A stretch of DNA of 32,643 nt. Origin: Mycoplasmataceae bacterium. Its GTDB lineage: Bacteria; Bacillota_I; Bacilli_A; Mycoplasmatales; Mycoplasmoidaceae. Shown here one piece after another: positions 770 to 3,981 of this stretch (position 1 is its first letter; each line of letters opens with the position of its first letter). The notes under the pieces were generated by a model, which had not been told where the DNA came from, made no database searches, and saw only the letters and a program-made list of their open reading frames with translations. Location: contig JAIRKL010000013.1 in assembly GCA_031260145.1 (NCBI GenBank), positions 1-32,643 on the forward strand. Reading direction: 5' to 3'. Position numbers and translations under genes: made by a program.

Positions 770-922
770 ATTCCATTCTGGTGATTCCTTTATTTGTTGG
801 TTTTAGGATGGTACTAAATTATTAGTACAGATCCTAAGATTAGTCTTTATGGCAAACCCACAGGAGGAGCGAATGACCTGGTTACTAATATAGAAATATA
901 TTGATTAGCAAGTCCTTAATTA

Positions 923-956
923 AAAAAGCACAATCAAGAAATTGGTTGTGCTTTTT
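923..956. terminator. Strong bidirectional terminator
   Basis: A 13-bp stem (AAAAAGCACAATC at 923-935, pairing with 944-956) with an 8-base loop, A-rich before and T-rich after. It ends the CRISPR RNA on the plus strand. Ten bases beyond the csn2 stop, it can also end the cas1-cas2-csn2 transcript on the minus strand. Confidence 0.85.
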
Positions 957-2916: not shown

Positions 2917-3981
2917 TTAATATCTTGGACTAAAAATTTCACAAATAGCATTATTAAATTCATTTAAAGCAATGCAAAGGTTTTTTCATTTTTCCGTTGA
3001 AGTATTAAGTTTATGATTTAAAATACCTCCTGTTGAGAATAGTGTTGTAATATTATTAAAAAAATATGGTGTTGAAACAACAGTCTCATTTGTTATTTTG
3101 TAAATTGCATTTTCTAGATTTTTTCCAGCATTTTTATATGTTATAGTTGTGATTCTTTCATTTAAATTAATATTTCTTGAATATATAGAAGATTGTAGAG
3201 TATTTACAAGAGAATTTGATAATTCCATAAAATGCTGATTTTGTTTTAAAAGATAAATAAATTCTGAAAATTTAATAACAAATTTATATAAAACTTCCTT
3301 CTTAACATCAGATTTTAAGATCGTATTAGTGTAAAAAGAAGAAGATTTAATAACATTAAAAAGTTTATTCAAAGAATCGGAACCTTCAAGTTCGTCGAAT
3401 ATGGTTTCATGAACTAAATCATTATAGGAATTCCCAATATTAACACCAATATCTTTTTTAATAAAATCAAAATAATTAGTCATCAAACGCATTTCTCCAA
3501 AACCAAAAACATTATTACACCTAGCAAAGAAATTATTCATAATTTCACTAGAAGTAGGTTTTTGTGAATTTGAAATATCAGAAGTCACTTTATCAACTTT
3601 TTCCTTTAATTCTTTTCAATTTTCCTCTGATGTATTTAAAAGATCAAGAATTTCTAAATCTTCAGTTAAAATAAAAAAATCTAAAATTGTTTTTTCTCAA
3701 GAAACTTCTATAAGAAATTTGCTAGCTAAAAGATCAACTAAATCTTTTACACTTCCTTCTGTTTTCTCTTTGTGAAGAACATTCATATTTAGAACGTTTA
3801 AAGTTTGTAGACTATAAATTTTAAAAGCATCGGTATTCATTAATTTTTTCAAAGAAGCAAATGTTTTCGTTCTTTCGCTAATTTTAGCACAAGAAGTTAA
3901 AGAAGTAAAACAAAAGCTAAAAACACAAGGAAAAAACAATAGTGAACTTAAAAAAGCTATTTTTTTTTTTTGAATACTCAT
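2917..3981 (-). CDS. Surface lipoprotein of unknown function
   Basis: 354 residues with TGA read as Trp. The N-terminus is a basic start (MSIQKKK), a hydrophobic stretch and the lipobox LTSC with Cys at about residue 31, so the product should be lipid-anchored on the outer face of the membrane. The rest is predicted largely helical, with many Asn, Ser, Lys and Phe residues and no recognised domain. It resembles the lipoprotein at 23934-25022 in size, lipobox, a WEK motif about a quarter to a third of the way along, and a similar C-terminal ending. The two may be distant paralogues of a lineage-specific surface family. It lies 48 bases upstream of cas1 on the same strand, but there is no reason to tie it to CRISPR. 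Confidence 0.8.

Follow-up and report, generated by a model that had tools for sequence, protein, structure and literature searches.

In the 32,643-nt stretch of DNA from a Mycoplasmataceae bacterium analyzed here (contig JAIRKL010000013.1, referred to as the window), the region behind cas9 carries a unit in which half of a CRISPR (clustered regularly interspaced short palindromic repeats) repeat and the anti-repeat of a trans-activating CRISPR RNA (tracrRNA) are joined in one hairpin behind a spacer. We suggest that natural single-guide RNA genes of this kind have probably replaced the pair of CRISPR RNA (crRNA) and tracrRNA for a type II-A Cas9. This interpretation is built on the fold of the hairpin, its covariation among species, the 66-nt register of repeat and spacer, the presence of copies with different spacers, the grouping of the corresponding Cas9s in one clade of single origin, and the finding that the upstream CRISPR repeat (R1) has little or no pairing with the anti-repeat. 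Judged from sequence, the unit is predicted to be transcribed and loaded onto Cas9. Its parts, one of which differs entirely in a second copy on contig C4 of the same genome, are as follows.

About 707-956, + strand: the fused guide unit, made up of promoter, R1, 30-nt spacer, half repeat, loop, anti-repeat, nexus, scaffold and terminator
691-718, + strand: promoter-like TTAACC-16-TATAAT, with TATAAT at 713-718; common to the C4 copy from about 706 on
734-769, + strand: R1, a 36-nt CRISPR repeat, ATTTTAGTCTGGTATATTTTCAGGACAGCCTAAAAC, with its 5' G changed to A and its 3' CTAAAAC retained, in register with the arrays of relatives
770-799, + strand: 30-nt spacer (guide), entirely different in the C4 copy
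800-817, + strand: R2 arm, the first half of a CRISPR repeat and the 5' arm of the fused hairpin
818-821, + strand: ATTA loop linking repeat to anti-repeat
822-840, + strand: anti-repeat, the 3' arm of the fused hairpin
843-853, + strand: nexus stem-loop GTC-TTTAT-GGC (GCC-TTTAT-GGC or GGC-TTTAT-GCC in relatives)
854-922, + strand: 3' scaffold with a hairpin, CTAATATA-GAAA-TATATTGATTAG, at 885-908; its sequence differs in the sister genome G004
923-956, + strand: intrinsic terminator of 15 bp, also present in copies on contigs C10 and C6

The fused hairpin at 800-840 has the sequence GTTTTAGGAT-G-GTACTAA-ATTA-TTAGTAC-AG-ATCCTAAGAT, in which 800-809 pair with 831-840 (10 bp) and 811-817 with 822-828 (7 bp) around an internal loop of G810 against A829-G830. 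Its folding energy is −16.7 kcal/mol (z = −5.3), and none of 200 shuffles was as good. The initial annotation of this DNA, made from the letters of the window, had proposed exactly this hairpin of 10 plus 7 bp, and the calculation bears it out. The nexus-like stem that it had placed downstream is also present, but in the form GTC-TTTAT-GGC rather than the version given there. Likewise, the unit has the TATAAT and the terminator ascribed to it: one intrinsic terminator lies at 923-956, against 0.1 expected by chance, and the promoter matches at 10 of 12 positions, although shuffles of the region yield equally many promoter-like hits. No CRISPR or tracrRNA family was matched in a search of Rfam.

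R1, which had been missed in the initial annotation, gives the unit its register. Among the first 14 nt of the R2 arm, 11 are identical to R1, and the distance from the start of R1 to the start of the fused half repeat is exactly 66 nt (36 + 30). Because this is the period of the arrays in sister species, we take 770-799, earlier described only as guide-like, to be a true spacer and 800-817 to be the first half of a second repeat. A promoter inside R1 (TGGTATATT, TGGTATAAT, TGGTATAAA) was considered and found not to be decisive; positions 12-18 of mycoplasma repeats are conserved for pairing anyway (PMC6882279).

The unit is not confined to the window. The genome to which the window belongs (G000, a draft of 658 kb that is 79% complete) has another unit, which follows a tRNA and runs into the end of contig C4. 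The two are identical, except for one base, from the T-run before TATAAT through R1, and again, except for one base, through hairpin and scaffold up to the contig end, whereas their spacers agree at 11 of 30 positions, which is not above chance. Contigs C10 and C6 break off within the scaffold, and on them the terminator stands in two other contexts. Since C4 overlaps each of them by 82 nt, there would be at least three unit sites in G000 (the window and two for C4, C10 and C6), unless the contexts of C10 and C6 are one site in different strains, and the copy number is uncertain to that extent. R1 occurs twice in this genome, each time within a unit, and no further copies appear at up to three mismatches. 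Pattern and model searches of this 79% of a genome found no ordinary array of several identical repeats and spacers, only R1 with one spacer and a half repeat; nor was a separate tracrRNA found there, the anti-repeat being joined in cis. The differing spacer of the C4 copy is not what insertion by Cas1-Cas2 would be expected to give, as this should add a repeat-spacer pair and not swap a spacer.

A covariance model of the window unit, the C4 copy and the sister genome G004 was applied to all 36 genomes of the genus, and 320 Mycoplasmatales genomes were searched with a second model at a cut-off of E ≤ 0.001. The fused hairpin was found in only 4 of the 320, namely G000, G004, G014 and G035, which represent four species and are all drafts. 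G004 (JAIRTE01, Mycoplasmataceae bacterium Ct408_bin7) is probably a termite-gut genome, judged from its sample name. R1, exactly 30 nt and the R2 hairpin follow one another in the window, C4, G014 and G035. In G035, cas9 and the unit are followed by csn2, cas2 and cas1 in the opposite orientation, all on one contig and in the same order as in the window; in G014, the unit lies between cas9 and cas1. In G004, the fused hairpin stands on two contig ends and belongs to one of two Cas9 systems. The other, at G004:C42 4989-5354, is of type II, with a large Cas9 and an array of the ordinary kind (GTTTGAGACGGGTGCAAAATTACAACCGTCTCAAAC). One G004 hairpin (G004:C12 85-130) adjoins the promoter region of a small open reading frame (ORF) present in at least two tandem copies; the hairpin has no R1 upstream and may therefore be without a spacer.

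Across the four species, all 67 of 67 pair cells in the fused stem are standard (100%), against 27-47% in slid controls. Five stem pairs have changed on both sides, compared with 2.2 in shuffles and none when the partner was slid. The pairing of the 800-840 type, whose loss in homologues would have spoken against a fused guide, is thus retained in all four species. Among the three Cas9s for which a full-length comparison was possible, identity is only 37-44%, which indicates long-term conservation of the fused stem. The Cas9s of the fused guides form one clade (support 100/99), next to Cas9s with ordinary arrays, and the simplest reading of this tree is that the fused guide had one origin. That the units are products of assembly, from a collapsed array or mis-joined contigs, is scarcely credible. 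The copies on C4, C6 and C10 and those of G004 do stand at contig ends, in keeping with such an error, but those of the window, G035 and G014 lie inside contigs of different genomes and have diverged in sequence, and the ordinary arrays of sister genomes were assembled with many spacers.

The pairing of repeat and anti-repeat separates the fused clade from its array-bearing sisters. In G031, G034 and G006, which have 36-nt repeats of the R1 type, 30-nt spacers and a period of 66, the array repeat forms a duplex of 26-32 bp with a separate tracrRNA (z −10.4 to −11.4; −37 to −40 kcal/mol). In the fused clade, pairing between R1 and the anti-repeat is at the level of shuffles in three cases (z −0.2, 0.3 and 0.9) and somewhat stronger in G014 (z −2.8), while pairing of the R2 arm reaches z −3.2 to −5.4. 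As the pairing of R1 is mostly at chance and that of the fused arm is not, the anti-repeat seems to serve only its own arm, and the dual mode appears to have been lost. The same comparison bears on the suggestion that the unit is an ordinary short tracrRNA with a half repeat upstream by accident, its crRNAs coming from an array elsewhere. A draft genome with gaps that has Cas1, Cas2 and Csn2 leaves room for such an array. However, R1-type repeats do not pair with this anti-repeat beyond the level of shuffles, unlike the repeats of the sisters, the short form would need a promoter within the spacer, yet the spacer differs between copies, and covariation preserves the very arm that would be accidental. 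We regard this suggestion as very unlikely.

The spacers of the four readable units (window, C4, G035 and G014) are mutually unrelated, and three of them can be read through, by eye, as coding segments. Searched at up to three mismatches, each of the four matched only the units themselves in its own genome, as did the spacers of C4, G035 and G014 in all 36 genomes of the genus. Among viral sequences, exact cores of 19-23 nt gave one 19-nt match for each of the two G000 spacers, with non-matching flanks as expected by chance, and codon-degenerate patterns of three spacers gave nothing. BLAST against phages, in which those of this host group are hardly represented, returned chance E-values only; the nearest match of note was an Anaeroplasmataceae phage with 24/30 identities to the C4 spacer (E 0.6). 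The fused-hairpin pattern was not found in IMG/VR. For 770-799, the target search that the initial annotation had called for thus gave chance matches only.

It could be proposed that the unit is instead a regulator like tracr-L of Streptococcus pyogenes, a long transcript through which Cas9 silences its own cas genes, or some other gene of the host, without cleavage. tracr-L uses a short seed against the cas promoter. In favor of this proposal, 9 nt at the 3' end of the C4 spacer match a site 116-124 nt upstream of cas9 (a level reached by 0.005 of shuffles, in one of seven tests). However, this match appears to lie within the neighboring trpS-like gene and not at the cas9 promoter. The window spacer, which stands beside cas9, has a seed of only 3 nt in the cas9 upstream region and 5 nt at cas1, neither a convincing match, and the G035 and G014 spacers have none above chance upstream of cas genes. 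In addition, the spacers vary from copy to copy and from species to species, and all have the full 30 nt and the register of an array. We therefore consider a regulator of this kind improbable. The initial annotation had favored a fused guide similar to, or more complete than, tracr-L, and this part stands, given the covariation, the register, the differing spacers and the single Cas9 clade. Its further suggestion of gene regulation or fixed targeting is not supported: neither G000 spacer matches elsewhere in this draft genome at up to three mismatches, autoregulation through the cas9 promoter lacks a convincing seed, and one fixed target is at odds with two different spacers in G000 and unrelated ones in sister species. 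Spacers that are unrelated and free of self-matches fit defence better than the regulation of one fixed gene, and for this reason defence against mobile DNA is the likely purpose of the single-guide RNA genes.

The Cas proteins at the locus are encoded as follows.

2-640, + strand: C-terminal part of cas9, 212 aa in genetic code 4, from position, length and the gene order of G035
967-1662, − strand: csn2-like gene of 231 aa that converges on the guide unit (PADLOC Csn2, E 2e-7), with homologues in the corresponding position in G004 and G035
1663-2031, − strand: cas2 (TIGR01573, PF09827)
1976-2869, − strand: cas1 of type II (TIGR03639, E 2.5e-74)

The ORF at 2-640 had no hidden Markov model hit by itself and is read as the Cas9 C-terminus on the grounds listed. 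The N-terminal part lies on a separate contig (G000:C9:6342-8984; TIGR01865, E 7.8e-107), and the alignment with G035 shows that a piece of cas9 between the two parts is missing in an assembly gap. RuvC-I, HNH and RuvC-III motifs were found in the Cas9s of G000, G035 and G004. The Csn2 assignment is weak, coming from PADLOC with no match in NCBIfam or Pfam, but it recurs in two homologues. G000 thus has the type II-A genes, namely a cas9 with RuvC and HNH motifs (split over two contigs), cas1, cas2 and csn2. Adjoining cas1 is a 354-aa ORF (2917-3981 of the window) with a signal-like N-terminus and no match in Pfam or NCBIfam.

Several observations weigh against the replacement of the dual guide by single-guide RNA genes. 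The genes cas1, cas2 and csn2 are kept although every unit has at most one spacer, and neither a target nor a protospacer-adjacent motif was found for any spacer in the searches made. The genomes are drafts (G000 is 79% complete), which leaves room for an ordinary array or tracrRNA elsewhere. The covariation count is based on four sequences only, and the G004 copy with a readable 5' side has no R1. In G014, some pairing between R1 and anti-repeat is left (z −2.8), a lone in-frame TAA interrupts the C-terminal third of cas9 (G014:C6 3-2135), and the spacer (G014:C6 2202-2231) is a nearly perfect, terminator-like palindrome, AAAAGATGGTT-GCT-AACCATCTTTT. The G014 unit is also flanked by an exact 30-bp direct repeat (G014:C6 2119-2148 and 2313-2342), the first copy of which overlaps the end of cas9; it may mark an insertion or duplication of the unit.

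Some of these observations would suit a decaying CRISPR locus, in which an array shrank to one spacer, a deletion joined its last repeat to the tracrRNA, and a useless relic remained. One spacer per unit, the degenerate 5' end of R1, the interrupted cas9 of G014, which also has no cas2 or csn2 beside its cas1, and the lack of targets all agree with decay, and some units, such as that of G014, might indeed be relics. As a general explanation, however, decay is unlikely: compensatory changes keep the fused stem across Cas9s as divergent as the three compared at full length, G000, G004 and G035 have the Cas9 motifs as well as cas1-cas2-csn2, and the unit has been multiplied in G000 with a different spacer.

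Under the replacement of the dual guide that we favor, a short array was probably fused by deletion to an adjacent tracrRNA gene. One transcript would then fold in cis, without a separate tracrRNA or pairing in trans, and RNase III would not be needed to cut a repeat duplex. The folded guide would be taken up by the neighboring type II-A Cas9, which it would steer to DNA that matches the spacer. In G000, the unit would have been copied to at least two further chromosomal sites, giving scattered guide genes instead of one array. Whether array and dual guide have been abandoned altogether, so that immunity comes from scattered single-guide RNA genes that each contain promoter, spacer and terminator, have spread by copying within the genome and change target by one spacer at a time, is a wider proposal to which we give an even chance.

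We file the system as a variant of type II-A CRISPR-Cas and not as an ordinary member, because no multi-repeat array was found. To our knowledge, tracr-L is the only natural parallel with Cas9, and it is a regulator beside a normal system. A literature search, which most subscription journals lay outside, found no report of a natural fused Cas9 guide besides tracr-L, of scattered guide genes, or of a Cas9 system that depends on a fused guide carrying full spacers. The units show a route by which a dual guide can collapse into a single guide, offer naturally evolved single-guide RNA scaffolds together with a small Cas9 (~1,100 aa), and make it testable whether a single-guide system can still learn new spacers.

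Compared with known systems, the closest likeness is to tracr-L of the S. pyogenes type II-A system, which is described as a natural single guide (Workman et al. 2021, cited in PMC8224270; PMC11417352). In both, a repeat-like sequence is joined to the tracrRNA anti-repeat in one RNA, giving a single-guide layout with a type II-A Cas9. However, tracr-L occurs alongside an ordinary array and a short tracrRNA, neither of which was found in G000 (79% complete), and the fused units, unlike tracr-L, have a full 30-nt spacer behind a CRISPR repeat in the 66-nt register, occur in several genomic copies with different spacers and have no convincing self-target. With the type II systems of mollicutes (PMC6882279; G031, G034 and G006), the fused units share Cas9, Cas1, Cas2, 36-nt repeats of the GTTTTAG type, 30-nt spacers, and a nexus and terminator. 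In the survey of mollicute Cas9s, tracrRNA and array are described as separate elements, and a search of its text for fusion found nothing (PMC6882279). The fused units differ in having one repeat/anti-repeat hairpin, no separate tracrRNA found, and one spacer each. The order of spacer, half repeat, short loop, anti-repeat, nexus and terminator is that of the engineered Cas9 single-guide RNA, but the fused unit is natural, preceded by a CRISPR repeat and multi-copy. The fused Cas9 guide was built by engineers in 2012 and is usually presented as an invention; the same layout appears to have evolved naturally in a small group of uncultured mycoplasma-like bacteria, where one clade of Cas9s seems to depend on it with spacers of full length. 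The omega RNA of IscB and TnpB is also a single natural RNA, guiding an ancestor-like nuclease with a guide taken from the transposon flank, whereas the fused unit has a different scaffold and nuclease and takes its guide from a CRISPR spacer.
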